This document shows, in pieces, positions 1 to 27,779 of a stretch of 64,000 bases of DNA. Origin of the DNA: Streptomyces sp. PCS3-D2 (lineage in GTDB: Bacteria; Actinomycetota; Actinomycetes; Streptomycetales; Streptomycetaceae); NCBI RefSeq assembly GCF_000612545.2, contig NZ_CP097800.1, positions 558,001 to 622,000 of the forward strand, written 5' to 3'. The position numbers were made by a program, and so were the translations under genes. Under the pieces are notes generated by a model. That model was given only the letters and a program-made list of their open reading frames with translations. It searched no databases and was not told the DNA's origin. Positions within the stretch are counted from its first letter, which is position 1, and every line of letters begins with the position of its first letter.

Positions 1-706
1 CCGGAGCGGCCTCCCGTGCCACCACCGCCTGGAGCCGGGTCACCACGTGCGCCGCCGCCACCACCGGGTCCACGGCGAGGTGCGGAGCCCCGGCGTGCCC
101 GCCGCGGCCGTGCACCACCACCCGGAGCGTGACACTGCCCGCCGTCATGGGCCCGTATCCGTGGGCGACCATGCCGGCCGGCAGCGGCGCCGCGTGCTGG
201 GCCAGGACGTCGTCGGGCCGGCCGCACCGCCGGTAGAGGCCGTCGGCCAGCATCGCCCGGGCCCCCTCCAGCGTCTCCTCGGCCGGCTGCCCGGCCACGA
301 CGAGGGTGCCGCGCCAGGCCCGGGGAGTCCGGGCGAGCAGCAGCGCCGTGCCCGCGGCCGCCGCGAGGTGCAGGTCGTGCCCGCAGGCGTGCGCCGCCTC
401 CCCGCGGGCCGCGTACGGCAGTCCGGTCGTCTCCCGGACCGGCAGGGCGTCGAGTTCGGCCCGCAGCAGGACCGTGGGACCGTCCCCGTTGCGCAGCACG
501 CCGGCCACACCGTGCCCGCCGATGCCGCGCGTGGTCGTGTACCCGGCGGACTCCAGCCTGCCGGCGAAGCGGTCCGCCGTGCGCCGCTCCTCCCCCGACA
601 GCTCCGGATCGTGGTGCAGTTCCAGGTACCAGGCCGTCAGGTCGCGCAGGTGCGCCCCGAGTCGGCTGAGCGGTGCGGCGGGCGATTCGGGTGCGTGGCC
701 GGTCAT
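1..706 (-). CDS. M20-family amidohydrolase/peptidase (partial, cut by window edge)
   Basis: This is an N-terminal fragment of about 235 residues whose 3' end lies beyond position 1. The family consists of metal-dependent amidohydrolases that cleave acylated amino acids or aminobenzoyl conjugates. The protein shows the early HHDPELSGEE stretch, the HACGHD metal-binding motif and the GHAGAP motif of the dimerisation domain, in the expected order. The ATG at 706 is the first good start. The gene is divergent from the RiPP precursor gene with about 170 bp between them. Nothing in the sequence ties it to the RiPP pathway, and it may simply be the flanking gene. The substrate cannot be told from the fragment. 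Confidence 0.85.
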   Translation of the reverse strand, partial: MTGHAPESPAAPLSRLGAHLRDLTAWYLELHHDPELSGEERRTADRFAGRLESAGYTTTRGIGGHGVAGVLRNGDGPTVLLRAELDALPVRETTGLPYAARGEAAHACGHDLHLAAAAGTALLLARTPRAWRGTLVVAGQPAEETLEGARAMLADGLYRRCGRPDDVLAQHAAPLPAGMVAHGYGPMTAGSVTLRVVVHGRGGHAGAPHLAVDPVVAAAHVVTRLQAVVAREAAP

Positions 707-748: not shown

Positions 749-782
749 GCGCTGACACCTCGTGACAGCGGAGTGTCAGCGC
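749..782. promoter_or_regulatory. Candidate SARP-type operator upstream of the RiPP precursor gene
   Basis: A perfect 10-bp inverted repeat, GCGCTGACAC (749-758) and GTGTCAGCGC (773-782), has a 14-bp spacer. Inside it the heptamers CTGACAC (752), GTGACAG (762) and GTGTCAG (773) recur every 10-11 bp. SARP regulators bind heptamer repeats spaced about one helical turn apart, and a SARP gene closes this cluster at 17.4 kb. The site lies 93-126 bp before the precursor ATG. Binding is inferred; it could instead serve the divergent amidohydrolase gene. Confidence 0.45.
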
Positions 783-874: not shown

Positions 875-1048
875 ATGCAGAAGTCGCCCCTCGCCTCGCT
901 CGCGGACGAGATCCTGGAGCTGGAGTCCGAGACGTTCGAGATCTCCGACTACTCGGACGCCAGCGAGGTCGTGCTCGCCGGTTCCACGAGCTGCAGCTCC
1001 ACCTCGACCTGCTCGTCGACCACCAGCACCACCTCCTGCTCCGCCTGA
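875..1048 (+). CDS. Ser/Thr/Cys-rich RiPP precursor peptide (thiopeptide/azole-peptide type)
   Basis: This 57-aa gene was found by reading the sequence. An AAGGAG ribosome site (864-869) precedes the ATG. The leader is acidic, with LADEILELESETFEISDYSD at residues 9-28, and closely recalls the nosiheptide-type leader (EIS followed by acidic residues and SEVV). After VVLAG (32-36) the last 21 residues are only Ser, Thr, Cys (C40, C46, C55) and a final Ala. Such a core suits conversion of Cys/Ser/Thr to thiazoles and oxazoles and of Ser/Thr to Dha/Dhb. All the enzymes needed lie in the facing operon. Counting S39 as core position 1 puts a Ser at position 13 (S51), as in 35-membered berninamycin-like rings, but no clear ring-forming enzyme is present. 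The exact cleavage site is inferred. Confidence 0.9.
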   Translation: MQKSPLASLADEILELESETFEISDYSDASEVVLAGSTSCSSTSTCSSTTSTTSCSA

Positions 1049-1070
1049 CCCGTCGGGCCGCGGACGCGGC

Positions 1071-1108
1071 GATGCCCCGGCCCCCGCATCTGCGGGGGCC
1101 GGGGCATC
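1071..1108. terminator. Bidirectional terminator between precursor and biosynthetic operon
   Basis: A perfect 18-bp stem (1071-1088 paired with 1091-1108) has almost no loop and reads GATGCCCCGGCCCCCGCA on the left arm. It lies 22 bp after the precursor stop and 16 bp after the end of the minus-strand YcaO gene. It should stop both convergent transcripts. Confidence 0.85.
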
Positions 1109-1124
1109 GGCCGTTGCGGGCCTC

Positions 1125-3062
1125 CTACGGGAAGGGGTGCGGGATCCTGCGGACGTCGGCGTCCGCGAGGTCGGCCGTGCGCATCCCCGCCCGCCGGGGC
1201 GCGGTGCGCAGCCGTGGCAGGTGGGGGGCGCGCTGCCGGGCCCAGCCGAAGTCGATCGGCAGCAGCCCGGGCACCACGGCGCAGACCGTGTGCAGGCCGA
1301 TCCGCCGCTGCTCCGGGGTGGTCTGGTCGACGGTGACGACGTCGTGTCCGGCGCGTACCAGCTCGTCCACGACGCACCGCAGATCGTCGCGGAGGTCTCC
1401 GGTGCGGGGCCGTCCGTACTCCGTCCAGGACCGGTAGAGCTCGTCCATCGTGCGTACGGCGAGCGGTTCCCGGTAGGGGCGGACGTGCTCCGCCATCGCG
1501 GGCAGCCCGTACAGCTGGGCGTGGTCCTTCAGGTGCAGCACCTTGTCGAAGTCGGCGGCCATCTCCTCCAGTTCGCCGCGCCGCTCCTCGACCTGGCGGG
1601 GCAGGTGCGGGATGTAGGTGAGCACCTCCGACAGGGCGGCCTCCACCGCCGCCGCCGGGTCGAGCGCGGCGCCCGCGCCGAAGGAGTACAGCCCGGGGCC
1701 GCCGTCGCGGCGCACCGCGAGCCCGGTGACGACCGGGACGGCCAGGTCGACGCGGTTGTCGAAGGCGTGCACGTCGTAACCCTGGAGCGCGGCCCGGTCG
1801 GCCATCGCGCGCACGGCGGTCCCCGGCACGCTCGCCAGGTCGATCTCGGTCAGCCGCAGTCCGCCGTACCAGGCGAGCAGGAACGCGTCCCGCTCCACGA
1901 GTTCGAGCAGGGCGCCGAGCAGCGCCTCTTCCTCGCAGCTGCCGATGGCACAGCCGTTGGAGCACTCGAAGACGAAGTTGTCGGCGGCGACGCCGGCGCT
2001 GTAGTGCACCAGCCGGGCCGGGACCAGCACGGGGCGGTCGTCGCGCAGCGAGTGCCCGTACACCCACGGGATGGGCCGTTCGGGGTCGAAGGGGGACACC
2101 AGCGGGTCGTCCCGGTAGGTCTCGGCCGCGTAGAACCCGCACGCGGCCGGGTCCAGGGCCCGCTCGCCCAGTTCGGCGTACGCGGCGGTGAGCAGGGTCT
2201 TGCCGGTGCGGCGGTGGGTTCCGGCGTACCGCTCCAGTCCTTCCAGGTGGGCGAGGTCGCGGCTGGCGGCGAAGCTGTTGGCCTGCCCGCTCCACGTCAC
2301 GTCCGTCAGTCCCGCGTACCCCCGCATGAAGACGCTGCCCGCAACCGGTGCGGTGGTGGGCGAGGTGACGTTCTGCCAGGTCCCCCCGCCCAGCACCCCC
2401 GTCACCGGATTGGCCAGCGCCGCGTACGGCATCGGGTAGGAGGACGCGGCGCGCAGCCGCTGGGCGCCGGGAGCGGGCTTGGGCCTGGAGGTGGGGGTGA
2501 AGGGGCGCGGTGCGTCGGCGCCCCGGGGCCCGCAGTCCGGGCACAGCGGATCGGCCAGCAGCGGATACGTCCGTACGCGCAGTGTCTCCAGGTCCAGCCG
2601 GGACACCTGGGGCAGGGCCCGGTCGGCGGCCGCACCGGCGGGTGCGGCGACCCGGCCGCCGTGGACCGCCTCGTGCAGGGCGTACACCGCGTCGTGCGCG
2701 TACGGGGACAGCCGGGGCCACTCGGAGCCGGTGGGCGTACCCGGCCCGCGGCCGGTCTCCAGCGCGTCGCGCTCGCTCCGGCTGCGCAGCCGCTGGCGGC
2801 GCATGGCCAGGCACTGGCCGCACGCCGGTGCGCCGCCGTCTCCGCCCCAGGGGCCGACGAGCACCTCCCGCGCGCTGAGGTGGACGGTGGCCCGGGGCCG
2901 GACGGCGGCGAACGGGTCGGCGGCGCGCGGCCCCAGGGCATCGTGCACGCCCAGGGTCACCACGACGGCGCCGAGCGGGACCAGCGCCTCGGCGAGGTCC
3001 CGCCGGGCGGATTCGAGGGGTGTCCCGTCGGGGGCGGGCGGACACGGCGGGGTCGTGGTCAT
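1125..3062 (-). CDS. YcaO-domain azoline cyclodehydratase, copy 1
   Basis: This 645-aa protein belongs to the TOMM YcaO cyclodehydratases, which use ATP to phosphorylate the peptide amide and close Cys/Ser/Thr side chains into azolines. The N-terminal part is E1-like with a four-cysteine zinc site (C81xxC84, C174xxC177). The YcaO domain starts near residue 200 and has the nucleotide-binding stretches SFAASRDLAHLEGLERYAG and EEEALLGALLELVERDA. The C-terminus is PHPFP, fitting the PxPxP tail of azoline-forming members. The ATG at 3062 overlaps the permease stop (ATGA), so this is the last gene of the operon. A second YcaO of identical length lies at 11404-13341. One possible split is thiazoline versus (methyl)oxazoline formation; this is inference. 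Confidence 0.93.
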   Translation of the reverse strand: MTTTPPCPPAPDGTPLESARRDLAEALVPLGAVVVTLGVHDALGPRAADPFAAVRPRATVHLSAREVLVGPWGGDGGAPACGQCLAMRRQRLRSRSERDALETGRGPGTPTGSEWPRLSPYAHDAVYALHEAVHGGRVAAPAGAAADRALPQVSRLDLETLRVRTYPLLADPLCPDCGPRGADAPRPFTPTSRPKPAPGAQRLRAASSYPMPYAALANPVTGVLGGGTWQNVTSPTTAPVAGSVFMRGYAGLTDVTWSGQANSFAASRDLAHLEGLERYAGTHRRTGKTLLTAAYAELGERALDPAACGFYAAETYRDDPLVSPFDPERPIPWVYGHSLRDDRPVLVPARLVHYSAGVAADNFVFECSNGCAIGSCEEEALLGALLELVERDAFLLAWYGGLRLTEIDLASVPGTAVRAMADRAALQGYDVHAFDNRVDLAVPVVTGLAVRRDGGPGLYSFGAGAALDPAAAVEAALSEVLTYIPHLPRQVEERRGELEEMAADFDKVLHLKDHAQLYGLPAMAEHVRPYREPLAVRTMDELYRSWTEYGRPRTGDLRDDLRCVVDELVRAGHDVVTVDQTTPEQRRIGLHTVCAVVPGLLPIDFGWARQRAPHLPRLRTAPRRAGMRTADLADADVRRIPHPFP

Positions 3063-3814
3063 GTCCGGTTGCTCCAGCGGAAGGTCTTGAGCCCGATCGC
3101 CCCGAACAGGACGGCGAAGCCGAGGAGCGCCGCGCAGCCGGTGCCGATGGCGGCCAGGGATCCGGTGCCGGTGAGCGCGCCGGTCGCCGCGTCGTTGAGG
3201 TAGCGCAGCGGCAGGACGCGGGAGACCGACTGCAGCCAGGCCGGCATCATGTCCAACGGCAGGAAGGAGCCGGACAGGAACGCCATCGGCACCATCAGGC
3301 AGTTGGCGATGGCGGCGACGGCTTCCGGGGTGTTCGCGTAGCTTCCGACGATCACTCCGATGGCGAGGAAGGCGGTGATCCCGAGCAGCAGGGCGGGCAG
3401 CACGAGCGGCCAGCGGCCGTCCAGGACCAGTCCGAAGCCGGGGAGCACGGCCACCGCGACGAACACCGCGGCCTGCACTGCGCCCACGGCCAGGGCCAGT
3501 ACGTACCGCGAGGCGAGCACGGTCGTCAGCGGGGTCGGCGTCAGCCGGATCAGCCTCAGCAGGTCGTCGCGGCGCCACTGCATGAGGGTGAAGGCGATCC
3601 CGAAGACGGCCGCGTTGGCGACGCCCCAGGACATCACTCCGGGCGCGATGTAGGAAATGTACGGGCGGCCGGTCTCCTCGACGTCCTGGCCGCTGAAGAT
3701 CAGGCCGAAGACGACCAGGAAGAGCAGCGGGAAGGCGAAGGTGAAGAAGAGGGTTGCCTTGTCCCGGACCTGCGCCCGGTAGCCGGCGGCGGTCAGGGCC
3801 GTGTATGCGCTCAT
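3059..3814 (-). CDS. ABC-2 type exporter permease of the RiPP cluster
   Basis: This 251-aa integral membrane protein has about six hydrophobic spans. The first is near LFFTFAFPLLFLVVFGLIF and the last near residue 235. It has the SGSFLPLDMMP stretch typical of ABC-2/DrrB-like permeases. The start at 3814 forms an ATGA overlap with the ATPase gene, and the stop overlaps the next YcaO start in the same way, so the three are translationally coupled. It probably exports the mature peptide or gives self-resistance, working as a dimer with the ATPase. The cargo is inferred from context only. Confidence 0.9.
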   Translation of the reverse strand: MSAYTALTAAGYRAQVRDKATLFFTFAFPLLFLVVFGLIFSGQDVEETGRPYISYIAPGVMSWGVANAAVFGIAFTLMQWRRDDLLRLIRLTPTPLTTVLASRYVLALAVGAVQAAVFVAVAVLPGFGLVLDGRWPLVLPALLLGITAFLAIGVIVGSYANTPEAVAAIANCLMVPMAFLSGSFLPLDMMPAWLQSVSRVLPLRYLNDAATGALTGTGSLAAIGTGCAALLGFAVLFGAIGLKTFRWSNRT

Positions 3815-4779
3815 GCCTGGTACTCCGTCTGCGGGTGGGGGCCGGCCTGCGGGCCGGGGTGTGCGGCTCCGGTGAGTTCGAGGTAGACGTCCTCCAGCGT
3901 CGCCGTGCGGGTCATCACCCCGTCCAGTCCGGTGAGCGCGTCGACGGCCTGGAGCACCTTGCCCGGCGTCGCGGTCTCCAGGACGAGGGAGCCGCCCTGG
4001 AGGACGGCCCGGTCCACACCGGGCAGCGCCGCCGCCTCCTCGACACCGAGCCGGCCGACGGGCAGCAGCAGGCGCGAGGGGGCGCCGGCCGCGGTGACCA
4101 GCCGGTGCGGCGAGTCGAGGGCGGCGATCCGGCCGGCGACGAGTATCGCGACGCGGTCGCACAGGGCTTCGGCCTCGTCGAGGTGGTGGGTGGTGTAGAC
4201 GATCGTGCGGCCCTGGCTCTTGAGAGCGCGCAGTACCTCCCACAGGTCGCGGCGGGCCTGCGGGTCCAGGGCGGCCGTCGGTTCGTCGAGGAAAATCAGC
4301 TCGGGTTCGTGGACGAGTGCGGAGGCGATGGCCAGCCGCTGGCGCTGGCCCCCGGAGAGGTTCTCCACCAGGACGTCGCGCTGCTCGGTGAGTCCGACGC
4401 TCTCCAGGGTGCGGTCCGCGGCAGCCGGATCACGCCGGTACAGGCCGGCGACGGTGGCGAGGTGCTCGCGCGCGCTCTGCCGCACGAAGAAGGCCGAGGC
4501 CTGGGTCTGTACGCCCATCCGGGGCAGCAGGGCGGTGTTGCGGGGCCAGGGGCTCTGGCCGAGGACGGTGACCGTGCCGCCGTCGGCCTGGCGGAGCCCC
4601 TCCATGATCTCGATGAGGGTGGTCTTGCCCGCTCCGTTCGGGCCGAGGAGCCCGAAGAACTCGCCGCGGCGCACCTCGAGGGAGACCCCGTCCACCGCCC
4701 GGCGGTCGCCGTAGCGTTTGTGGACGTCCTCAACGGCGATGGCCGGGGAGTCGGGCGGTTGGGTGCTGTCTGTCGTCAT
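3811..4779 (-). CDS. ABC transporter ATP-binding protein (DrrA-like) of the RiPP cluster
   Basis: This 322-aa protein has a Walker A GPNGAGKTT near residue 46, signature LSGGQRQRL, Walker B LIFLDEPTAALD and the switch histidine in VYTTHHLDEA. After the nucleotide-binding domain comes the C-terminal region seen in drug-export ATPases of the DrrA type. It pairs with the adjacent permease (ATGA overlap). The start is the ATG at 4779, with GAGGGACG as a possible ribosome site. About 93 bp of partly repetitive DNA separates it from the upstream M50 gene, the largest gap inside the operon, so an internal promoter or mRNA processing site is possible there. Confidence 0.93.
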   Translation of the reverse strand: MTTDSTQPPDSPAIAVEDVHKRYGDRRAVDGVSLEVRRGEFFGLLGPNGAGKTTLIEIMEGLRQADGGTVTVLGQSPWPRNTALLPRMGVQTQASAFFVRQSAREHLATVAGLYRRDPAAADRTLESVGLTEQRDVLVENLSGGQRQRLAIASALVHEPELIFLDEPTAALDPQARRDLWEVLRALKSQGRTIVYTTHHLDEAEALCDRVAILVAGRIAALDSPHRLVTAAGAPSRLLLPVGRLGVEEAAALPGVDRAVLQGGSLVLETATPGKVLQAVDALTGLDGVMTRTATLEDVYLELTGAAHPGPQAGPHPQTEYQA

Positions 4780-4823
4780 GGGTCGTGCGTCCCTCTGTGT
4801 CTGTCGTGTGTCTGTCGTGCAGT

Positions 4824-4877
4824 GGGTTCGGGCCGGGTGGGTTCGGGCTGGGTGGGTTCAGGCTGGGTGGGTTCAGG
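4824..4877. repeat. 15-bp tandem repeat, 3.6 copies
   Basis: The unit GGGTTCGGGCTGGGT repeats at 4824, 4839 and 4854, with a partial copy from 4869. Copies differ only at one or two positions (C/T and G/A). It begins in the gap between the ABC ATPase and M50 genes and runs through the M50 stop codon at 4873-4875, so slippage could change the end of that protein or the intercistronic spacing. No known regulatory element matches it. Confidence 0.85.
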
Positions 4878-5973
4878 CGGTGGCGGCGTACCAGACGGCT
4901 GTCGTGAGGCCTGCCGCCAGGAGCAGGACGAGGGCGGCGGAGCCGGCGGCGTAGCCGAGGTAGAGCCTCCTGGCGCGCGGCGGATAGGCGGCAGCGGCCG
5001 TCCGGTCGCGCATCCGGAGGCGGAGATACCCCGAACTGGCGGGTGCCAGCCGTGTGACGCGCAGGCCGTGTCCGAGCATCGTGTAACCGTCCAGCGGGGG
5101 CAGGGGGATCAGGTTGACGAGCGCCTGGGCGCTGCCGATGAGCAGCAGTGCGGCGAGGGTGCGCCGGACGGGGTCGTCGCCCGCGGGCAGCAGGGTCCAC
5201 CAGAGCCAGAACGGCAGCAGGAACAGCAGGTTGGCGAAGGCGCCCGCGGCGGCGACCGCAAGTTGCTGCCGACGCCTTTCCAGAAAACGGTAGTTGTCGA
5301 CGGTGCAGTACATGATGGCGACGGGCAGCCGCCAGCGCAGCCCGATCTCGCCCACGGTGCCGCCGACATGGCGGGCGGCCACCCCGTGCGCGAACTCGTG
5401 CAGGGCCGTGCTCAGCCACATGAGGGTGGCCACCGCCAGCAGCGGGACCGGTTGGCGCAGCAACCAGCCGAAGGAGGACACGAGTTCGCCGGCGGACCGG
5501 ACGAGCGCGGTCTCCATGGCGAGGCAGCCGAGCAGCAGGGCGCCGAGCACCGCCGGGTGCAGGAGCGGGCGCAGGACGCGGTGCAGCCGGGCCGTCGTGG
5601 CATCGGCGTCCGCGACCAGCCGCAGCGTACCGCGGAGCAGGCCGCCCGTGAGCGGTGGTCCGGCCGGGGCGGGCGCGGGGGGCGGCGGGCCACCGGCGAG
5701 CAGCCGGCGGCTGCCGAGGAGTGCCAGCAACTGCTGCCAGTTGGCCTCGCCGAGCCGCCGCCCGAAGGTCCGGCCGTACTCGGTCCCGATCTCCGCCAGG
5801 CTGCGGGTGCCGTCGAGCCGGGAGACGAGGAAGTGCTCCTTGGGGCCGATCTCGAACGAGGCCCCCGACACGGGGTCCTTGACCAGGTGGACGGTCGCCG
5901 GCCCGGCGAGGAGCGGAGGGGACAGCAGGACCTCCGGGCGCAGGGCGGGCCGGTGGTCCAGCAGCCCGGTCAT
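4873..5973 (-). CDS. M50-family membrane zinc protease with PqqD-like N-terminal domain
   Basis: This is a 366-aa protein. Residues about 25-95 resemble a PqqD/RRE-type peptide-recognition domain (VSRLDGTRSLAEIGTEYGR). After a Pro/Ala linker come hydrophobic helices carrying the zinc motif H192-EFA-H196 and, further on, the second site-2-protease motif LIPLPPLDG. The fold class is the site-2 or peptide zinc metalloprotease group of membrane proteases. In this operon the likely job is removal of the precursor leader at the membrane, next to the exporter. The front domain would hold the leader. The ATG at 5973 overlaps the stop of the eliminase gene (ATGA). A role in immunity cannot be excluded. 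Confidence 0.85.
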   Translation of the reverse strand: MTGLLDHRPALRPEVLLSPPLLAGPATVHLVKDPVSGASFEIGPKEHFLVSRLDGTRSLAEIGTEYGRTFGRRLGEANWQQLLALLGSRRLLAGGPPPPAPAPAGPPLTGGLLRGTLRLVADADATTARLHRVLRPLLHPAVLGALLLGCLAMETALVRSAGELVSSFGWLLRQPVPLLAVATLMWLSTALHEFAHGVAARHVGGTVGEIGLRWRLPVAIMYCTVDNYRFLERRRQQLAVAAAGAFANLLFLLPFWLWWTLLPAGDDPVRRTLAALLLIGSAQALVNLIPLPPLDGYTMLGHGLRVTRLAPASSGYLRLRMRDRTAAAAYPPRARRLYLGYAAGSAALVLLLAAGLTTAVWYAATA

Positions 5974-7055
5974 GTGGCGACCGCCGGGCTGCCGGCCGGG
6001 ACCTCGCCCTCGCGCAGCACCCGCCCCAGCAGGTGGGCCAGGTACGCCTCGTCGCGGATGGTGACGTGCAGCCGGTTGTTGGTCATGTGCATGTACGGGG
6101 AGAGCAGCAGGGGGAGCGCCTCGGCGGGGTCCGTCACCCGTTCGTCGCGGGTGCCGTCCCAGGAGCGGAAGACCAGTTCCCCGTCGGCGGCCAGCGCCTC
6201 GGCGCGCTCGCGCAGCTCGTGGCAGTGTTCCGCCCACCCGGCCAGGAAGGCGGGGAGCCGGCCCGTCTCGCCCGAGGCCAGCGCGTCGCGCACGGCGGCG
6301 AAACGGCGGCCGAGCCCGGGGGCGGTCTGCCCGTAGGTCCGGTCGTACTCCTGGGAACCGATGAACCCGGTGCCGGGGAAGGCCTGGTGCCAGAACTCGT
6401 AGTACCGGTCGAGGTATCCGGCGAGTTCGTCCCGGTCGGGCAGGAAGACGCCCGCCATGACCATCATCAGCTGGGCGGAGGTACCCAGCAGGACGGTGCG
6501 CAGGTGCAGGTTCATGCGGTGCAGCGCGTCGATGACCAGGTCGCTGGAGCGGGCGAAGTGCCATTCGGCGAGTTCGACGCCGGCGGGACCGCCGTACTTC
6601 CCGAATTCGGGCTCGTACGGCTCGCGGGAGTACGAGTTGTTCGGGCGCAGGTTCATCCGGCCGTCGGGTCCCATGAAGGCCGCCCGGTCGCCCTCCGGGA
6701 ACTCGATGTCGAAGAGCGTGTTGTAGAACTCGTTGAGGAATCCGGAGTCGACCTCGTAGAGGGCCGGCCGGGCCCGCAGGAAGGCTGCCACGGCCTCCTC
6801 CGCGCGGCGCCGCACCTCGGGTTCCGCCTCCGGAGTGGCCGGGCGCAGCCGCAGCCGCACGTGCGGTCCCTCCAGCCAGTAGTTGATGAAGAAGTGCCCG
6901 GCGAGGAGCCCGTCGGCGGTGAGGCCGGCGATCAGCGGCCGGACGCACTGCACCAGCAGCGGCTGCGGGTTGGCGGCGTAGAAGATGTGCAGGGCCTGCC
7001 AGGCTCCGCGGGTGTCGCCGGGGGCGCCGGGGGTGGACGGGGTCATCTCGGCCAT
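5970..7055 (-). CDS. SpaB_C/thiopeptide-type protein, probable glutamate elimination (split LanB C-domain)
   Basis: This 361-aa protein belongs to the thiopeptide-type bacteriocin biosynthesis family, which includes LanB glutamate-elimination domains and the related pyridine synthases. Elimination-type residues are visible: HVRLR (R67, R69), YEPEFGKYGG (147-156) and HMTNNR (323-328). In nisin dehydratase the position of K153 is an arginine, so one active-site residue is conservatively changed. The protein would release glutamate from glutamylated Ser/Thr to leave Dha/Dhb. It is the only member of this family in the window, so either the product lacks a pyridine ring or this enzyme does more than eliminate. 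The second in-frame ATG at 7046 gives an ATGA overlap with the LanB gene and is an equally good start. Confidence 0.85.
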   Translation of the reverse strand: MAEMTPSTPGAPGDTRGAWQALHIFYAANPQPLLVQCVRPLIAGLTADGLLAGHFFINYWLEGPHVRLRLRPATPEAEPEVRRRAEEAVAAFLRARPALYEVDSGFLNEFYNTLFDIEFPEGDRAAFMGPDGRMNLRPNNSYSREPYEPEFGKYGGPAGVELAEWHFARSSDLVIDALHRMNLHLRTVLLGTSAQLMMVMAGVFLPDRDELAGYLDRYYEFWHQAFPGTGFIGSQEYDRTYGQTAPGLGRRFAAVRDALASGETGRLPAFLAGWAEHCHELRERAEALAADGELVFRSWDGTRDERVTDPAEALPLLLSPYMHMTNNRLHVTIRDEAYLAHLLGRVLREGEVPAGSPAVAT

Positions 7056-9799
7056 CGCGTGCCGCCTTCCTGGTCTTCGGGGTCCGTTGCGTGCCGGTGG
7101 GTGGTGGTGAAGGTCTCGACGGCCAGTTCGGCGACGTGCGCGCCGTCCGCCGAGCGCACGTGCAGGCCTCCGGGGTCGGGGAGCATCTCCCGGAAGACAA
7201 CCCGGTGGGCCGGATCGCGCAGCAGGGTCTCGAAGGCCGCGAGCGACAGCAGGCTCGCGAAGTCGACGTAGGTCGGTTTGGCCCCGGCTGCCGACGGGCC
7301 GGCCGACACCGTCGCGAACACCTGTTCCGGCAGTCCGTGGGCCCGGCGCCAGCGCTGCCAGTCCAGGAAGTTACCCGCTTCCAGTGCCCCTCGGACGGGC
7401 AGGTCGCCGGCCGCGGTGGTCCAGCTGCGGCGGCTCAGGACGACATCGCCGTGGACCACTCTGGGCCGGGTGGTCACGCTGTCGCGGGCGGGGCCCTCGG
7501 GTACGCCGGCCCACACGTCGAGCGGTGACATCGAGGACGGGGACAGCAGCAGGAGCGTGCGCGGGATCGCAGGCAGGGCGAGCGGCACCAGGTAGCCGAG
7601 GTAGACGGGGACCACCTCGCGCCCGAGGCTGCGCGACCGCAGCACCACGCGCCCGGTGGCCGGCACGTGTTCGGCGTACAGGTCGTCCAGGTGCAGCCGG
7701 TGCTCCGGCGGGAGGGTGCCGCTCTCGCCGGGGCAGACGATCTCGTAGTCGGTCAGCCGGCCGTGCAGGTTCAGGTTGGTGGTGACCGGGCCGCCCGTCA
7801 CCTCGGCGAGGACCGCGCCGGGCGGGGTGATCCGGTTCGCCGTGGCCCGCAGGGCGTCCGAGAGGCCGGCGCCCGGCCCGTCGTACACGTGGGTGAAGCG
7901 GCTGAAGGGGAAGGACAGCCCGCCGTACGAGCGGTTCAGCACGGTCAGCGGCGTGCCGTCGGCCGGGTCGCGGCCGAGCTGGAGGTGGTGGCAGCGCGGC
8001 GCGAACGGCGCTGCGATCGGGCCCAGTTCGTCCGCGACCGCCGCGAGGTCCGCCTCGTCGAGACGCAGGACGGCCGCCGTGTCACGGCCGTGCGCGTCCC
8101 CGTACGCCGTCCAGGCCCGCCGCATCCGTCCGGTGAAGGCACGGCGCGCCGCGTCCAGGGCGCGGATGCCGGGCAGGCCGAGCCAGTTCTCCTCGGGCAC
8201 GTACTCGCCGCGTTCGTCGAAGGGTCTGCGCCGGGCGGTGAACGACAGGTACTGGTCGAAGAAGTCCTCGTGGAAGTCGTGCACCAGCCCGAGGAGGTCC
8301 TCGCAGCGGCCCCCGGCGCCGTAGCGGGCGGCGAAGAACCCTTCGAAGGTGATCCGCTGGGCCAGTGTGAGGTCGAAGGCGGGCAGGATCCGCTCGACCG
8401 ACCGCAGCGCGGTCCAGTCGGGCGGCGGGCAGGGCAGTTCAGCGCCGGCGCTCACGTCCTCGTACAGCAGGGTCTGCGGCAGGGCCGCGTCCGGTGCCCC
8501 GAGCTCCTCCTGGGCGCGGCGCAGGCCGCTGCGCAGCGCCCGCAGCAGTTCGGCCCGTTGTGCGCGGTCGGCGGCCGGGTAGCCCGCCAGAGCGGCGGCG
8601 GGCGCTTCGAGCAGGGCGGCGAGCCGGTCCGCCCAGGGGCGCTCCAGCGAGGTCAGCGCCTGCCGGAAGGAGCTCAGCGGGTCGCCGCTGTGCACCTGGG
8701 TGTCCAGGCGGGGCGCGTGCACCATGCCGAGCTGGAGGAGGGCGGAGACGTACGCCTCGCACTCCTCGGGGCCGGCGGCGTGCTCGGCCGCCAGCCAGTC
8801 GGTCAGGTCCCGGTGGCGCAGCTCGGGACGCTCGGCGAACAGGCCGAGGATCCGCTCCAGGGTGCCGCTGCGGCGCAGGAAGAACAGCCGGTCCTGGACC
8901 GCGTCGAAGGTGACGGCGGCCGCGTCGTCGCCCGCCGTGACCGAGCGCCGCACATAGCGGATCCGGTCGTCCTCGTGGCCCCAGCCGGAGGCCAGGCGCA
9001 GCGGCAGGTCCCGGCGGCGTTCCGGGTCGGCCTGGATCAGCTCGGCGATCCGGGCGAGGACGACGACGTTGAGCCGTACGCTGCTGCTCCACGCGTCGGC
9101 CACCCGCGTCCCGCCCGGTACGCCCCCGCCGGTGCTGTCGGTGAAGCGTCCGGTGGCGACGGCGGTGAGGGTGCTGAACGGGCTCGTCTTGCAGGCCGTG
9201 CGGTACACGTAGGACAGCAGGGACCGTTCGGCCTTGCGGGCCCGCCCGTTCGGCGCGTTCCCGGCGCGGGCGTATCCGTCGAGCTGCCCTTCGAGCACCG
9301 GTGAGGCCAGCAGCAGCCCGGCGCGCAGCCGCTCGTCGCGGACCAGGCCGCGCAGCGCGGACCGATTGCGGGCCAGGTCCGCGGTGAGCAGTTGCGGCCC
9401 TTCGGCCAGCAGTTTGTCCAGCAGGCGGCGCCGGTGCAGCCAGCCTGCCAGGTCTTCGGCGGCGGCCTCGTCCACGGCGGCGACGGCTTCGACGGCGGCT
9501 TCCGTCGAGGCGTCGGGCCGGGCCGGCAGCCGGTCGTTGTGGATCTGGCGGCGCAGCTTCAGCAGCGCGCGGCGCCGGGCCGCGCCCGGGCCGTCCGGGG
9601 CCGGGTCGGTGGCCCCGACGGCCGCGTGGAGCGCGTCTCCCAGTCGCGCGGCGCCCTGGCGCAGACCGGTCTCGGCGGTGAGGACCTCCTCGACCCAGCC
9701 GCGGGTGCGGTCGGCGCGCAGGACGTCGACCGCGGACAGCGGGAGCCCTGCGACGCGCAGCATGAAGCGGTCGCCCGCGTGCCACTCGGTGGTGTTCAT
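7043..9799 (-). CDS. LanB N-domain type dehydratase (tRNA-Glu-dependent glutamylation)
   Basis: This 918-aa protein belongs to the lantibiotic dehydratase N-terminal family, in which Ser/Thr side chains of the precursor are glutamylated using glutamyl-tRNA. The family landmark, an aromatic/Arg run followed by TACKTSPFSTL (201-211), corresponds to the RxxxRPTPFG region. SYGGLSFPFSRFTHVYDG appears later, as in thiopeptide members. The elimination domain is absent from its C-terminus and is supplied by the next gene, the usual split arrangement of thiopeptide and goadsporin systems. It lies 13 bp after the SagB-type gene and overlaps the eliminase gene, so the group is one transcription unit. 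Confidence 0.93.
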   Translation of the reverse strand: MNTTEWHAGDRFMLRVAGLPLSAVDVLRADRTRGWVEEVLTAETGLRQGAARLGDALHAAVGATDPAPDGPGAARRRALLKLRRQIHNDRLPARPDASTEAAVEAVAAVDEAAAEDLAGWLHRRRLLDKLLAEGPQLLTADLARNRSALRGLVRDERLRAGLLLASPVLEGQLDGYARAGNAPNGRARKAERSLLSYVYRTACKTSPFSTLTAVATGRFTDSTGGGVPGGTRVADAWSSSVRLNVVVLARIAELIQADPERRRDLPLRLASGWGHEDDRIRYVRRSVTAGDDAAAVTFDAVQDRLFFLRRSGTLERILGLFAERPELRHRDLTDWLAAEHAAGPEECEAYVSALLQLGMVHAPRLDTQVHSGDPLSSFRQALTSLERPWADRLAALLEAPAAALAGYPAADRAQRAELLRALRSGLRRAQEELGAPDAALPQTLLYEDVSAGAELPCPPPDWTALRSVERILPAFDLTLAQRITFEGFFAARYGAGGRCEDLLGLVHDFHEDFFDQYLSFTARRRPFDERGEYVPEENWLGLPGIRALDAARRAFTGRMRRAWTAYGDAHGRDTAAVLRLDEADLAAVADELGPIAAPFAPRCHHLQLGRDPADGTPLTVLNRSYGGLSFPFSRFTHVYDGPGAGLSDALRATANRITPPGAVLAEVTGGPVTTNLNLHGRLTDYEIVCPGESGTLPPEHRLHLDDLYAEHVPATGRVVLRSRSLGREVVPVYLGYLVPLALPAIPRTLLLLSPSSMSPLDVWAGVPEGPARDSVTTRPRVVHGDVVLSRRSWTTAAGDLPVRGALEAGNFLDWQRWRRAHGLPEQVFATVSAGPSAAGAKPTYVDFASLLSLAAFETLLRDPAHRVVFREMLPDPGGLHVRSADGAHVAELAVETFTTTHRHATDPEDQEGGTRWPR

Positions 9800-9812
9800 C
9801 GTGCCGCTCCCT

Positions 9813-11363
9813 TCAGGCGATCTCGTGACGGAAGTCGGCCGGCCGGGGACGTTCGTGGCCCAGCAGCATGATCAGCAGGGGAGCCTCGTCGGTGCCGGTC
9901 AGGCCCAGCTCCTCGATGTAGGAGATGTTGTCGAAGCCGAGGGCCACCCCGGCGCCCAGGCCGAAGGCCGCGGCCGTGGTGTAGAAGGTCTGGGCGACGG
10001 CTCCGACGGTGCCGCCCACGAGCCGGTAGCCGCGGTCGCCGACTCCGTCCAGCACTGCGGTGGTGCGGACCGTCGGGACGAGCACCGCACCGGCCTGCTC
10101 CAGGTTGTAGTTGGAGAGGAAGTAGGTGCGCTGCAGGAAGGGGCCGGGCGGTCCTGCCGTGATCAGCCGCAGGGTGTGCGCGGCCGGGTCGTAGGCGTAC
10201 GCGCCCGGGTCGATGCCCCGGACGTGGTTGACGAAGGCGTACAGCGAGGTGAGGGAGGGGCCGCCGGGGCTCTCGGCCTCGGTCCCGTACCGGGTGGCCG
10301 CGCAGTCGGCGAGTGCCGCGGCGAGCTGTTCGGCGGCGACGGGCCGGGAGGCGTCGAAGCGGCCGAAGCTGCTGCGGCGTTCGCGTAGGGCGCGGGGGGC
10401 CGGGACCGGCGGCGCGGGGGGCCGGGGCAGCGCCAGCGGTTGCGCGCCGCGGGGCGGGTGGGCGGCCGCCGCGTCCAGCGCTCCGGGCGCCGGGCGGTCG
10501 GCGGCCCGCCCCTCGGTGGCCCGGTGGACGCGCCGCAGGGTCTCGAACTCCAGGACACGGCGCGAACGTTCGGCGTCCCGGTGCCGCGTGGTGGCGCCCG
10601 TCGCCCCGCCCGCACCGGGCTCGCGCCCGCCCTCCCAGGTCAGCGGGACGACGGCGAAGACGCCCTCCTCCTCGGGGGCCACGCCCAGCAGCCGGGCCAG
10701 GCGCTCCTCGTCGAACCACAGCACGGGGTCGATCCGCAGCCCGTACTGCGCCGCCCACAGCCGCCAGGTCTGTACGAGGGCGCCGACGTCCATGCTGACG
10801 GCGTGGAAGGAGAAGCTGTTGTACTTGAAGGCGTTCTGCCAGTACTTGACGCCGAGGACGAGGTACTGCGTGGCCCGTCCGGCCGGGCCCGCGCCCGGAC
10901 CGAGGGCCTCCCGGACGTCGCCGGTGACGTCGCCGGCGAGCAGTCGGCGCAGCCCGTGCTGGTGGGGAGCGTAGTGGTAGAGCCCGGGTGTCAGCGGTCC
11001 GCCGGGTCCGGCCGCCCAGTGGACCGTCACCGGGTAGAGGCCGCCGCCCGAGGCGGTACCGCGCGACCAGTTCGCGTGGTGGTAGTGCGGGAGCGCCGCC
11101 AGGTCGGTGTTGGCCTGGACCGCGAGGCGCCGGCCGGTCAGCCCGTAGGAGTCCCGCAGCATCCCGGACAGCAGCGGCAGGGTGAAGCCCGGCAGGAGCC
11201 CCGGCGGCGTGTGCGGCGGCACCGGTAGGGGGAGCGTCTCGGCATCCGGGTGGAACTTGGCCTTGCGGGGCCGGTCGGCCCAGTCGGGGACGAAGTCGGC
11301 GGGCTCCATCGGCACCCGGCCGCGGTGCATGATCTCGTGGGCGTAGACATGGGCGTGGCCCAT
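9813..11363 (-). CDS. SagB-type FMN-dependent azoline dehydrogenase (two-domain)
   Basis: This 516-aa protein has two nitroreductase-like halves. The first half carries R101GTASGGGLYP, matching the SagB PSGGALYP substrate/flavin motif. The second half begins near RERRSSFGRFD, the FMN-binding RxS region, and contains a degenerate copy of the same motif (AESPGGPSLTSLYAF). Enzymes of this family oxidise thiazolines and oxazolines to thiazoles and oxazoles. The product of this cluster should therefore contain aromatic azoles, not only azolines. It lies 40 bp after YcaO copy 2 and 13 bp before the LanB gene. The start at 11363 follows an AGGAGG ribosome site. Confidence 0.92.
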   Translation of the reverse strand: MGHAHVYAHEIMHRGRVPMEPADFVPDWADRPRKAKFHPDAETLPLPVPPHTPPGLLPGFTLPLLSGMLRDSYGLTGRRLAVQANTDLAALPHYHHANWSRGTASGGGLYPVTVHWAAGPGGPLTPGLYHYAPHQHGLRRLLAGDVTGDVREALGPGAGPAGRATQYLVLGVKYWQNAFKYNSFSFHAVSMDVGALVQTWRLWAAQYGLRIDPVLWFDEERLARLLGVAPEEEGVFAVVPLTWEGGREPGAGGATGATTRHRDAERSRRVLEFETLRRVHRATEGRAADRPAPGALDAAAAHPPRGAQPLALPRPPAPPVPAPRALRERRSSFGRFDASRPVAAEQLAAALADCAATRYGTEAESPGGPSLTSLYAFVNHVRGIDPGAYAYDPAAHTLRLITAGPPGPFLQRTYFLSNYNLEQAGAVLVPTVRTTAVLDGVGDRGYRLVGGTVGAVAQTFYTTAAAFGLGAGVALGFDNISYIEELGLTGTDEAPLLIMLLGHERPRPADFRHEIA

Positions 11364-11403
11364 GGGTCCTCCTGCGTTCGGGTCGGACGCCGGCGGTGGC
11401 CGG

Positions 11404-13341: not shown

Positions 13342-15583
13342 CGCCCGGCTCCTGAGCGGAGGTCAGCAGCACTCTGGCGGTGTGGAGTCCGGCCGAGGCC
13401 AGGTCCGGGGTGCCGGTGGACACGGCGTAGACGTCGCGGCCCGCCGACCGCAGCCGGTCGAGCACCTCGGACCAACCGTCGGCGGACCGGCCGTCGGCGG
13501 ACCGGCCGTCGGTCGCGACGGTGAGCGTGCGGGCGTCGAGGTCGGCCAGCAGGGGATCACCCGTGTCGGCCGGTCCGCCGGGCGCGTCCTCGTCCCGCTC
13601 GAACTGCACGGCGCCCAGCAGGTCCCGCAGCGCGGTCACCGTCGCCGTTCGTCGGTCCAGGCAGGCGCCCACGGCCCAGCGTTCCCCGGCCCGGGCGAGG
13701 AGCACCTGGACACCGGAGTGCGCGGCCTCGCCGAGGTCGAGGAGCTCGACGGCGAGCCCGAGCCGGTCCGCCGACCGTACGAGGAAAACGAGTTCGGCGT
13801 CGCCGGTGTCGCCGCTGTCGTCGCTGCCGTCCGGCAGCGGCACCGGCAGGGCCGCCGCCCCGCGGACGGCCCGCAGCAGGGCGTCGTGGGCCAGGGCGGA
13901 GAGCAGGCCCGCGGCGGCCGCGTCGGCGGGCGAGGGTCCGGCGCCGGCGCCGGCGCGGGTCCGCTCGAAGAGCCGGTCGCCGTTGTGCGGGCCGAAGGGG
14001 CGTACGGCGCCCGCCGGCACGAGGGCGGGTTCCTTCGTGACCAGGGAGACGGCCGGCTGCCAGGCGGCGGCCGTACCGGGCAGCCCGGAGGCGATGGTCA
14101 GCGAGCCTTCCGCGACCGCGGCTTCGCCACGGGCGGCTACACCGTACGCGGGGACGACGTGCTCGGCGTAGACCACGGCCGCCGCGTCGAGCGCCCGCAT
14201 CCGGGCCCCGGCGACGTGGTGGACGTCGAAGGCCGCGATCGCCCGGGAGGCCGCGGGTCCGGTGCCGAACTCGACCACGCTCAGCTTGAGGGGGATCTGG
14301 GTCAGCGGCTCGTCGGCGTAGCGCGTGAAGACGCCGGTGTACGGACGGACGAGCGCGGAGCGCCGGTTCAGCTCCTCCACCAGGGCCTCCGCCGCACGTG
14401 CGGTGTCCAGGGTGGGCAGGGCGGGGGTGCAGGTGGTACCGGCTTCGGCGAGGTCCACGGGGGCCGTGGCCCGGCTCGTCGCCTCTTCGTCCGGGGCGCA
14501 GAACGGGCAGCGCGGGTGGGCCAGGAGCGGTTCGGCCGTCACGTCCAGCGAAGCCATGTCCTGCACGATCACCTGGCCTGCGGTCTCGGCGGGCAGCGCC
14601 CCGCTGGTGGTGCGGAAGACCTCGTAGCCGAGGAGGTTGCCGATCATCGCGGCCAGTGGCCGCCCGGGCTCCGGGCCGGACGCGGCCGGCCCGCCCGGCA
14701 GGGCCAGGGCGCTCCAGAGCTCGGCCGCCGCGGCACCGTCGCGGCCCGCGGCCGCGCCGAGCCGGAGCGCGGCGCAGGCCCAGCAGCCGGTGGCGGTGGA
14801 GGTCATGAGCGGGCCGATGACGGCGTCGGCCCCGTAGGACCAGGCCGGCAGGAGGGTGCGGCCGGCCGGGATGCCGGTGCGCAGCAGCGGCAGCAGGCGT
14901 GCGGGCGCGGTGCGCCCGCCGGTGACGACCACGAGGTCGTACTCGGACAGTTCGGACCAGGAGGGCTGCCGGTCCGGGGCCGTCGGCAGGGTACGCAGCT
15001 CCACCGGGCAGCCGTCGGCGACGGCCTCGGCCGCCTCGGCGTCGAGCTCGGGCGTGCCGGGCGGTGAGGTGCGGAGGGCCGGTGTCACGCCGACGAGCGC
15101 GCAGCCGTTGCGTATCAGGCTCGATGCGCACCAGCGGGCGACGTCGTCGTCGCCGAGGACGGCCACGCGGGTGTCGCGGAAGCGCAGGAACCGTGCTTCG
15201 GCGTCGTCGGCGTAGTGGTCGGCGTAGGCGATCTGCGGGGCGTACCGGCGGGCCACGTCGGGGGCGGGCGCCGGCTTCTCGGCCGCGGATGCGTCGGGGG
15301 CGGCGACAGGACGGGCGAAGTCCCTTTCGTACAGGGTCCGCACGAGTTCGCCGACCATGGCCTGCTGTGCCTCGCCGAGCCCCCGGCACAGGTCGGCGAC
15401 CGAGTGCTCGCCGGTGAGGTGGGGGACGATCAGCGTCGCGAAGCGGTAGGCGGACTTGGCCGTGAGCCGGAAGCCGCCGTCCGCGTTGTGGAACAGCACG
15501 CCGTCGGGCGTCTCGGTGAACAGCACGTCCCGGCGGATCCGGGGACGGGTCTCGGCAACGGCGTGATAGCTGGCGTGGGCCAT
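13331..15583 (-). CDS. ThiF-like (ocin-ThiF) TOMM leader-binding partner protein
   Basis: This 750-aa protein begins at the ATG at 15583, just after GGGGTG. Residues about 18-90 look like a RiPP recognition element (wHTH, with LFTETPDGVLFHNADGGFRL). A ThiF/E1-like Rossmann region follows near residue 136, with VLGDDDVARWCASSLIRNG. Four zinc cysteines are in CWAC and CPFC, but no adenylating motif is obvious. The family delivers the precursor leader to the YcaO enzyme. A short DNA repeat gives DGRSADGRSADGW near the C-terminus. It is the first gene of the biosynthetic operon, with 97 bp upstream to the regulator gene. The C-terminal 350 residues are unusually long compared with minimal F-proteins and their role is unclear. 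Confidence 0.88.
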   Translation of the reverse strand: MAHASYHAVAETRPRIRRDVLFTETPDGVLFHNADGGFRLTAKSAYRFATLIVPHLTGEHSVADLCRGLGEAQQAMVGELVRTLYERDFARPVAAPDASAAEKPAPAPDVARRYAPQIAYADHYADDAEARFLRFRDTRVAVLGDDDVARWCASSLIRNGCALVGVTPALRTSPPGTPELDAEAAEAVADGCPVELRTLPTAPDRQPSWSELSEYDLVVVTGGRTAPARLLPLLRTGIPAGRTLLPAWSYGADAVIGPLMTSTATGCWACAALRLGAAAGRDGAAAAELWSALALPGGPAASGPEPGRPLAAMIGNLLGYEVFRTTSGALPAETAGQVIVQDMASLDVTAEPLLAHPRCPFCAPDEEATSRATAPVDLAEAGTTCTPALPTLDTARAAEALVEELNRRSALVRPYTGVFTRYADEPLTQIPLKLSVVEFGTGPAASRAIAAFDVHHVAGARMRALDAAAVVYAEHVVPAYGVAARGEAAVAEGSLTIASGLPGTAAAWQPAVSLVTKEPALVPAGAVRPFGPHNGDRLFERTRAGAGAGPSPADAAAAGLLSALAHDALLRAVRGAAALPVPLPDGSDDSGDTGDAELVFLVRSADRLGLAVELLDLGEAAHSGVQVLLARAGERWAVGACLDRRTATVTALRDLLGAVQFERDEDAPGGPADTGDPLLADLDARTLTVATDGRSADGRSADGWSEVLDRLRSAGRDVYAVSTGTPDLASAGLHTARVLLTSAQEPGDDH

Positions 15584-15680
15584 GGGGACACCCCTGGGTG
15601 CGGTCTGGGCGGGATCGGGGAGAGAATCTGAGCGGGAGGTGCGGGGGCAGGCGCGGCGGGGCTGCGCGAGCCGGGAGGGG

Positions 15681-17459
15681 TCAGCGGGGTGCGGCCGCGG
15701 CCGCCGTCTCGTGCGCGCGCAGGCGCCAACGCGCGTAGATGCGGAGCAGGCCGTGGAGGCGGTACGGGCCGGGCGGCCCGTCCTCCAGCAGCCCGGCCTC
15801 CACGAGCTGTTCGAGTACGGACTCGCTCTCACCGGCCGCGAGGTCGGGGGCCGGCGGGCTTGCGTCCTCGGCGCGCCCGGCCAGCCGGAGGAACGCCTCC
15901 CGCAGCTCGGGGGCGAGCGCGTCGAGCGCCTGCCCCAGGACACCGGGCACGGAGAGCCCCGCGTCCTCCGCGAGCGCCAGGCGGGCGACGGGATCCGCCG
16001 CGAGCCAGGCAGCGCAGTCGGCGACCGACAGGCCGGGCCGGGTCAGCAGCCGTCCCGCGGCGATCCGCAGGGCGAGCGGGAAGTGGCCGCACACAAAGGC
16101 CAGTTCGCGGGTCGCCGCGGGCTCGGCCGCGATGCGTTCGGTGCCGACGAGCCCGGCGAGCAGGGCGTGTGCCTCGGCGGAGCGGAGCACGTCGAGCCGG
16201 TGCACGGCGCCGCCGTGGGTGGCGACGACGGCGGCCAGCTGGCGCCTGCTGGTCACGAGGACGGCGGCGCCGTCCGCGGCGGGCAGCAGCGGCAGCACCT
16301 GCCAGGCGCCGGCCGCGCCGTCGAGGACGATCAGGCGGCGGCCGGGGGCGGGCTCGGGCATGAGCCGCGCCGCCTCCTCGACGGCGACCGGGGTCCCATC
16401 GGGCCGGGTCAGCTGGAGGGTCGACACACCTCCGGGGAAGGACTCCTGGACCTCGTGCGCGGTCTGGCGGGCGAGCGCGGACTTGCCGATGCCCGGCGCT
16501 CCCGAGATGACGACCAGGCGCGGGCCGTCGGCGGCGGTGAGCCGGGCGGCCACGGCCCTGCGGTCGGCGTCGCGGCCGGCGAAGGCGGGTACGGGCGGCA
16601 CCGCGTGCGCCGTCCGGACCGGGGCGGACGGGCCGGCGGGCAGCGCGGCGGGCTCCGCCGCGGCCGCGGCGCGCGGGGGTTCCGGCGGGGCGGGCGAGAG
16701 CTCTTCGGCGCGCAGGATGGCCAGTTCCAGGCGGCGCAGTCCCGGTCCGGGGTCGATGCCGAGTTCGTCCCGCAGCCGGTCGCGGACCGTGCGGTACTCG
16801 GCGAGGGCTTCGGCCTGCCGTCCGGTGCGGTAGAGCGCCTCGACGAGCTGTTCGGTGAAGCGTTCGCGTACCGGGTGGCGGCGTGCGCTCTCGTACAGGT
16901 CGACCAGGACCTGATGGCAGTTGCCGGCGGCGAGTTCAAGGTCGCATACCCGTTCCAGCACCCGCAGGCGCTCCTGTTCCAGGACGGGTACCGCGTCCTC
17001 CTGGAGCAGGTGCGAGGCGACGTTGGCGAGGGGCTGCCCCTGCCAGAGGGCGAGCGCCTCGCGCAGCCGGTAGAGCTCCTCCCCCGGGTCCCCCGCCGAT
17101 CCGGCCCGGGCCGCGAGTGCGCGGAACCGGACGAGATCGAGCGTCTCGGTGTCGCAGCGCATCCGGTATCCGCCGGGAACGGCCTCGATGACGGTGGCGG
17201 ATATGCCGTACTTGGCGAACAGCCGGCGCAGCCGGAGGACGCACGTCTGCAGTGCGGCGCGCGCCGTGGCGGGCGGCTCTTCGTCCCATACGGCACGCAG
17301 CAGGTAGGCGGTCGAAACCACCGCGTTCGGGTGGAGCAGCAGTGCGGCGAGAAGGCTCGTTGGCTTGGACGGTTTGAGAACGACGGAATCCGGGCCGTGC
17401 GCAATGCTCAGGGGCCCCAAAAGCTGGAACCGGATGACTGATCCCCCGTGTCGGGACAC
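15681..17459 (-). CDS. SARP/BTAD-family regulator with NB-ARC ATPase domain
   Basis: This protein is about 592 aa. Residues 1-95 are an OmpR-type winged helix (RFQLLGPLSI, LLAALLLHPNAVVS). The bacterial transcriptional activation domain follows to about 245 (DLVRFRALAARAG, LYESARRHPVRERFTEQL). After a Pro/Ala linker comes an ATPase with Walker A ISGAPGIGKSALA. The TPR part of AfsR-type proteins is missing. It is likely the pathway activator of the RiPP cluster, acting at heptamer repeats such as those at 749-782. In-frame starts are GTG 17459 (after GGGGGAA) and TTG 17471; I chose the GTG. It is transcribed in the same direction as the biosynthetic operon, 97 bp upstream. Confidence 0.9.
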   Translation of the reverse strand: MSRHGGSVIRFQLLGPLSIAHGPDSVVLKPSKPTSLLAALLLHPNAVVSTAYLLRAVWDEEPPATARAALQTCVLRLRRLFAKYGISATVIEAVPGGYRMRCDTETLDLVRFRALAARAGSAGDPGEELYRLREALALWQGQPLANVASHLLQEDAVPVLEQERLRVLERVCDLELAAGNCHQVLVDLYESARRHPVRERFTEQLVEALYRTGRQAEALAEYRTVRDRLRDELGIDPGPGLRRLELAILRAEELSPAPPEPPRAAAAAEPAALPAGPSAPVRTAHAVPPVPAFAGRDADRRAVAARLTAADGPRLVVISGAPGIGKSALARQTAHEVQESFPGGVSTLQLTRPDGTPVAVEEAARLMPEPAPGRRLIVLDGAAGAWQVLPLLPAADGAAVLVTSRRQLAAVVATHGGAVHRLDVLRSAEAHALLAGLVGTERIAAEPAATRELAFVCGHFPLALRIAAGRLLTRPGLSVADCAAWLAADPVARLALAEDAGLSVPGVLGQALDALAPELREAFLRLAGRAEDASPPAPDLAAGESESVLEQLVEAGLLEDGPPGPYRLHGLLRIYARWRLRAHETAAAAAPR

Positions 17460-27719: not shown

Positions 27720-27729
27720 CGGGAAGGGA

Positions 27730-27764: not shown

Positions 27765-27779
27765 CACGAGGGTGCCGGC

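Follow-up and report, generated by a model that had tools for sequence, protein, structure and literature searches.

A cluster of genes at the left end of a 64,000-nucleotide stretch of Streptomyces sp. PCS3-D2 (the window, positions 558001-622000 of the main contig of its complete 7.63-Mb genome) probably directs the synthesis of a linear, hypermodified peptide carrying azoles and dehydroamino acids, made by chemistry like that of goadsporin; we put the probability of this reading of the sequence at roughly 0.75. A preliminary description of the window had listed a precursor peptide, a ThiF-like protein, two YcaO proteins, a SagB-type dehydrogenase, a LanB N-domain, a SpaB_C protein, an M50 protease, an ABC exporter and a SARP regulator as a cluster for a ribosomally synthesised and post-translationally modified peptide (RiPP), and every one of these is found by domain models (Table 1). 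These genes span 875-17438, and a gene for an M20 amidohydrolase at the left edge extends the set to -565. This gene lies on the minus strand and the precursor gene on the plus strand, followed by ten minus-strand genes running from YcaO1 to the SARP gene, with adjacent genes overlapping by a few bases at several junctions in an operon-like manner. The set is not a chance assembly, as its content and order are repeated in dozens of species. The same description had allowed either a linear product or a macrocycle made in an unusual way. No pyridine synthase was found in the locus or in the complete genome, which makes a linear peptide with azoles and dehydroalanine or dehydrobutyrine (Dha/Dhb) the better of the two, and among the scanned genes there is no candidate enzyme for an unusual macrocyclisation. 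Three points go beyond that description: the cluster is common, its core peptide is nearly invariant and the M20 gene belongs to it.

In the proposed pathway the ThiF-type protein would bind the leader and hand the precursor to the two fused cyclodehydratases, YcaO1 and YcaO2, which would jointly cyclise selected Cys, Ser and Thr residues, and the SagB-type dehydrogenase would oxidise the resulting azolines to azoles. After azole formation other Ser and Thr residues would be glutamylated by the LanB N-domain protein, and elimination of the glutamate by SpaB_C would leave Dha/Dhb. The M50 protease may then remove the leader and the ABC-2 pump export the product, which the M20 enzyme could trim, mature or detoxify, while the SARP protein would be expected to control the divergent promoter between the precursor and M20 genes.

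The three YcaO-domain matches of the genome all lie in the cluster. YcaO1 and YcaO2 are both fusions of TIGR03882 and TIGR03604, scoring above the cut-offs, and their lengths of 645 residues and PHPFP ends are as first described. PHPFP is not, however, a distinguishing mark, since it also ends the YcaOs of five thiopeptide loci (L053, L095, L096, L108 and L109; loci are numbered with L and genomes with G). Of the columns in an alignment of 31 YcaOs, 46 are invariant and both window proteins carry all of them. These include two ExxER-type motifs and the Gln, whose catalytic roles we take from the YcaO literature, together with the PHPF end and four Cys. The ThiF-type protein has lost both ExxER-type motifs in its YcaO-like tail (Asp, His and His in one and Ser, Ala and His in the other for Glu, Glu and Arg), and Thr replaces the catalytic Gln there. 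In a tree of the 31 YcaOs, drawn from 21 chosen loci with the short L104 left out, YcaO1 and YcaO2 fall into separate clades (supports 100/100 and 100/99, dropping to 82/99 and 92/99 when more distant loci join). The pair is old, because each clade holds all 11 of the sampled two-YcaO loci. YcaO2 sits between the ThiF and SagB genes, as does the sole YcaO of L051, L052 and L098, and because it holds the position of the single-YcaO relatives YcaO1 is probably the added copy.

The YcaOs are paired wherever the locus is complete. Two YcaO places are present in 136 of the 141 loci that combine a SpaB_C at 52% identity or more with a ThiF protein in the stretch (59/79, 68/80 and 14/20 loci qualified, with overlap of species); the five others either reach the contig end (L111, L144, L155 and L158) or are broken by a run of N (L166). 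It seems unlikely that one of the two is not an azoline maker but a scaffold or the catalyst of another backbone change, such as thioamide or amidine formation. The existence of two old, distinct clades would suit such a role and the second YcaO of lactazolicin clusters is described as lacking the PxP motif (PMC7136475), but both window proteins retain the invariant columns and PHPFP. The genome is also without TfuA, and a thioamide route of the YcaO-TfuA kind was rejected as the pair is absent. Nine positions are fixed differently between the two clades, with no pointer to the residues taken by each, and a division of the core by position or the work of a joint complex would suit the sequence data as well as the division into Cys and Ser/Thr work that had been suggested. 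A rule by which two YcaOs would go with a Thr-rich core and one with a Cys-rich core was dropped, as L222 and L223, with two YcaOs, have Cys-rich cores.

PF14028 and PF04738 are each represented in the genome by a single protein, encoded in the cluster, and in agreement with the pyridine synthase reported as not visible, a genome-wide search with NF045556 finds only the cluster SpaB_C, at about 100-101.5 bits against a cut-off of 325, so that the [4+2] enzyme by which thiopeptides are recognised is not found. This score falls in the range of the non-synthases. The LanB-adjacent first SpaB_C proteins of L053, L096 and L109 score 97, 97 and 70 bits and L051, L052 and L104, which have one SpaB_C each, give 110, 112 and 36 bits, with 436, 412, 482 and 442 bits for the second SpaB_C proteins of L053, L096, L109 and L108. 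The C-terminus of the window protein, YMHMTNNRL, matches HxxxNR, a pattern that all 26 non-synthase rows, the window protein among them, carry close to the C-terminus and that none of six synthases has; LLCHLA has the opposite distribution (6/6 and 0/26). HxxxNR is present in 79 of all 86 SpaB_C stretches, a set that excludes a weak second match in L103 and partial matches covering fewer than 250 model positions. In a tree of 32 of the 86 the six synthases form one clade (100/100) with the window protein outside it. On score and signature the best reading is that SpaB_C is a glutamate eliminase, and the role of pyridine synthase was rejected on the eliminase-range score, HxxxNR and the missing LLCHLA. 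This would also agree with the needs of the pathway, since such a dehydratase requires an eliminase and SpaB_C is the sole candidate in the genome.

The probable core of the precursor, STSCSSTSTCSSTTSTTSCSA, is composed almost solely of Ser, Thr and Cys, with three Cys, and is presumably unrelated to the goadsporin core. The median identity of the precursor to that of the window is 92.7% (64 loci), compared with 55-74% for the nine other genes having data in more than two loci. Over the stretch that was compared, the 129 precursor matches reduce to 102 different DNA sequences and 28 different proteins, and removal of identical DNA and then of unusual lengths left 102 and then 100 precursors, including the divergent relative L122, the source of most singletons. 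Over the last 22 residues of these 100 the mean identity is 92% for amino acids and 81% for bases, the values for the leader part compared being 93% and 91%, and 15 of the 21 core residues are identical in at least 99 of the precursors. Many of the fixed core Ser alternate between TCN and AGC codons, a route that passes via Thr or Cys or takes a double change. An argument from the ratio of non-synonymous to synonymous changes was set aside, because Ser switches between TCN and AGY are scored as amino-acid changes; the precursor values (dN/dS 0.294, the lowest, and pN/pS 0.355) are close to those of SpaB_C (0.304 and 0.396).

Where the core of the 100 precursors does vary, it does so mainly by exchange among Cys, Ser and Thr: site 1 is Ser in 88 and Cys in 12, site 2 Thr in 97 and Cys in 3, site 4 Cys in 56, Ser in 22 and Thr in 22, site 10 Cys in 90, Ser in 9 and Thr in 1 (that of L122), site 14 Thr in 91 and Cys in 9, and site 20 Ser in 86, Cys in 8 and Thr in 6. 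The singletons at sites 5, 7, 16, 19 and 21 all come from L122, Ala at site 12 belongs to the second precursor copy of L154, and the core is preceded by Gly in 96 precursors and by Ser in 4. Because interchange of Cys, Ser and Thr fits an exchange of thiazole and oxazole, azoles are probable at sites 1, 2, 4, 10, 14 and 20 and at Cys19, and Dha/Dhb at the fixed Ser and Thr, above all S3, T9, T13 and S18 directly preceding azole sites. Two precursor genes each are present in L152, L154, L122, L222 and L223. In L080, L082, L083, L085, L086, L088 and L121 the precursor lies at the SARP end and has the core variant GCTSTSSTSTSSSTCSTTSCSA, with the Cys sites shifted.

Several observations weigh against a linear azole and Dha/Dhb peptide. 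The precursor is of thiopeptide type, with TIGR03892 (49.5 bits) and NF033400 (41 bits), both models of thiopeptide precursors, above their cut-offs, and the best PDB match of SpaB_C, and the only significant one, is the synthase TbtD (E 5.5e-10). Thiopeptide eliminases and the window protein also fail to group in the SpaB_C tree: a 96/94 branch of the first tree splits eight eliminase-type rows from the synthases plus the window group, alternative joins give P values of 0.163 and 0.293 in the approximately unbiased test (p-AU), and without five long rows there are three long branches, leading to the synthases, the eliminases and the window group. The tree was accordingly dropped as proof of kinship with eliminases, as the side nearer to the window group is not shown. 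Furthermore, the azole assignment comes from residue exchange only, some Cys may stay unmodified, and a fixed core is not unique, as five loci that we presume from their cores to be cyclothiazomycin-like (L053, L095-L097 and L101) have only two core variants. The precursor models, TbtD and the tree would all suit a macrocyclic thiopeptide in which the single SpaB_C, or an unidentified enzyme, carries out the [4+2] cycloaddition. Such a product is nevertheless very improbable, given that by score and signature SpaB_C resembles the eliminases, that it falls outside the synthase clade and that, as the sole PF14028 protein, it is the only candidate eliminase, with one SpaB_C place in all 141 loci. 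Least probable is a lanthionine/azole hybrid with Cys added to Dha/Dhb. LanB-type dehydration and three core Cys would permit it, but the cluster has no LanC domain (the genome's two LanC-like matches are about 6 Mb distant) and the Cys-Ser/Thr swaps at the six variable sites suit azoles better than thioethers.

The linear peptide would be the product of a widespread cluster. Matches to SpaB_C were found in 85 of 393 genomes of the genus (E 1e-10), 65 of them at 53% identity or more, with the genome itself included and G171 and G375 in split frames. At E 1e-50 the family has matches in 74 of 297 genomes, spread over 6 of 17 genera and including a few other relatives of 41-55% identity, and at E 1e-40 the phylum has matches in 5 of 396 genomes, all of the same genus. 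The 80 of 164 relatives kept in a scan of named genomes include S. virginiae, S. goshikiensis, S. lavendulae, S. griseus, S. albidoflavus, S. microflavus and S. globisporus, and, outside the Streptomycetaceae, Sphaerimonospora thailandensis. Gene order is conserved in many Streptomyces and other Streptomycetaceae, and a near-identical core is found in other genera of the family (L212-L220 and L229-L231). L222-L224 have two YcaOs with different ABC neighbours, shorter cores and no M20 match in the stretch. The plasmid collection gave four SpaB_C relatives and no precursor match, and no YcaO1 match was found in phages. In another genus of the family SpaB_C relatives of 53-54% identity (L221:6792-7850 and L225:12056-13108) have no YcaO or LanB match in the stretch.

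The M20 gene, divergent from the precursor gene, belongs to the cluster. The two genes are neighbours in all 48 loci counted, these being the loci of the 80 in which tblastn gave at least 40 precursor residues, with two of the M20 alignments partial, and the best PDB match of the M20 protein is an N-alpha-acyl-glutamine aminoacylase (6slf). Further left the scanned genes have no match in the loci. The right border beyond the SARP gene is less sure, as the fetched loci hold little sequence there, and an esterase at 18260 has a match in one locus. SARP operators are typically direct repeats with a period of about 11 bases. In 64 precursor upstream regions TGWCAG occurs 108 times against 2.8 expected (200 base shuffles, highest 7), the commonest spacings of TGWCA being 10, 11, 21, 44, 23 and 34, and the TGWCA repeats in the M20/precursor promoter are a probable SARP operator.

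A literature search, with subscription journals mostly outside its scope and with PMC9247985 on pyritides among the papers covered, gave no product described for the cluster. S. albidoflavus genomes are reported to hold a 'LAP, thiopeptide' cluster (LAP, linear azol(in)e-containing peptide) with the fluostatins M-Q as the best known match at 4% (PMC11678301, PMC10745817), and via L144 we infer that this is the same cluster. The initial statement that no described pathway has exactly this set holds in so far as an exact characterised match was not found, the syntenic clusters being uncharacterised as far as searched, but not for sets of comparable kind, which the coryneazolisins and a plasmid of Actinomyces oris hold. 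The coryneazolisins, as described in 2015, combine two D proteins with lanthipeptide-like dehydratases, lack a [4+2] enzyme and were suggested to be non-macrocyclic (PMC4603692, Cox et al. 2015), so that two YcaOs and a split LanB without a [4+2] enzyme are not new in kind. Compared by published description rather than by enzyme sequences, they also share the split LanB and highly conserved precursors with the window cluster. They differ in having one discrete and one fused D protein, where both are TIGR03882 and TIGR03604 fusions here, and in a core of 10 Cys/Ser/Thr, Ile and 5-7 Cys/Ser/Thr; the window core and 22 listed variants have no Ile after the FEI motif. According to the same paper some thiopeptide clusters carry an additional fused cyclodehydratase. 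Goadsporin, from Streptomyces sp. TP-A0584, likewise has a fused cyclodehydratase, a dehydrogenase, the split LanB GodF/GodG and no [4+2] enzyme, but with one cyclodehydratase, a peptidase-ABC transporter and N-acetylation in place of the M50 protease, plain ABC-2 pump and M20 enzyme found here (PMC5303826, PMC4603692). Dehydrazoles and carnazolamide share azoles, Dha and a Ser/Thr/Cys-rich core, and differ in having a DUF4135 dehydratase in place of LanB (PMC10676384).

The A. oris plasmid locus (L233, 3891-17240) has a ThiF-like protein, YcaO, SagB, LanB N-domain, SpaB_C, four precursors and a second YcaO. Its YcaOs, SagB and LanB parts are only 29-39% identical to those of the window and its ThiF protein 26%, with other cores, and tests of a shared origin of the two YcaOs give p-AU values of 0.385 and 0.338, with long branches. 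The cyclothiazomycin-like loci have YcaO, SagB, LanB and an eliminase, with a ThiF-type match in L053, L097 and L101, but each has two SpaB_C and one YcaO place, the second SpaB_C being a synthase by score in L053 and L096, which were tested. The single-YcaO loci L051, L226, L227 and L232 (a plasmid) share the leader type and also have ThiF, YcaO, SagB, LanB, SpaB_C and ABC genes, with an M50 match in L051, L226 and L227. They have a Ser/Cys-rich core, repeated throughout with one change in one of the four loci, and no M20 match in the stretches of L051, L226 and L227.

The cluster thus apparently represents an uncharacterised RiPP family, notable for its abundance and the constancy of its core. 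As roughly one in four of the Streptomycetaceae genomes sampled has SpaB_C and the core is nearly fixed, it can be asked which constant product is made and at which target it is directed. One tentative answer, which we consider rather unlikely, would be a streptomycete signal or morphogen shared across the family: a linear peptide consisting almost wholly of azoles, Dha/Dhb and a few Ser/Thr, chemically constant in much of the Streptomycetaceae for a conserved receptor or target, with the two YcaOs dividing one core between them, by position or by residue, and using one leader binder. The literature searched assigns no product to the cluster that would bear on this. The paired paralogous YcaOs with their one shared leader binder offer a natural system for the splitting of a substrate by two cyclodehydratases, and the pattern of Ser/Thr/Cys exchange provides a testable map of azoles ahead of isolation of the molecule.

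Table 1. Features of the cluster, in window coordinates.
Feature	Position	Strand	Models and remarks
M20 amidohydrolase, 423 aa	-565..706 (window part 1..706; continues in L209:11436-12707)	-	PF01546/PF07687, TIGR01891 above cut-off
Three TGWCA-type heptads, probable SARP operator	753..780	+	spacing 10 + 11 bases, divergent promoter
Precursor peptide, 57 aa, probable core STSCSSTSTCSSTTSTTSCSA (21 aa)	875..1048	+	TIGR03892, NF033400 above cut-off
YcaO1, 645 aa, second cyclodehydratase	1125..3062	-	PF02624, TIGR03604, TIGR03882
ABC-2 exporter permease	3059..3814	-	PF01061
ABC exporter ATPase	3811..4779	-	PF00005
M50 intramembrane metalloprotease, probable leader peptidase	4873..5973	-	PF02163 above cut-off
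SpaB_C, putative glutamate eliminase, not pyridine synthase	5970..7055	-	PF14028, TIGR03891 above cut-off; HxxxNR
LanB N-domain, predicted tRNA-Glu dependent glutamylation enzyme	7043..9799	-	PF04738
SagB-type azoline dehydrogenase	9813..11363	-	TIGR03605 above cut-off, PF00881 (two nitroreductase stretches)
YcaO2, 645 aa	11404..13341	-	PF02624, TIGR03604, TIGR03882; single-YcaO position of relatives
ThiF-type leader-binding protein, degenerate C-terminal YcaO domain, 750 aa	13331..15583	-	TIGR03882 above cut-off
SARP-family activator, BTAD domain and ATPase part	15681..17438	-	PF03704, PF00486

Some more specific models gave scores below their cut-offs, namely the daptide protease model NF041824 for the M50 protein (95 bits, cut-off 300), TIGR03693 for the ThiF-type protein (72 bits) and the AfsR model NF053617 for the SARP protein, and no acetyltransferase model scored above its cut-off among the scanned cluster proteins. 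Matches to a methyltransferase, a terpene synthase and a P450 adjoin one another at 25591-29489 of the window and perhaps form a small terpene cluster.

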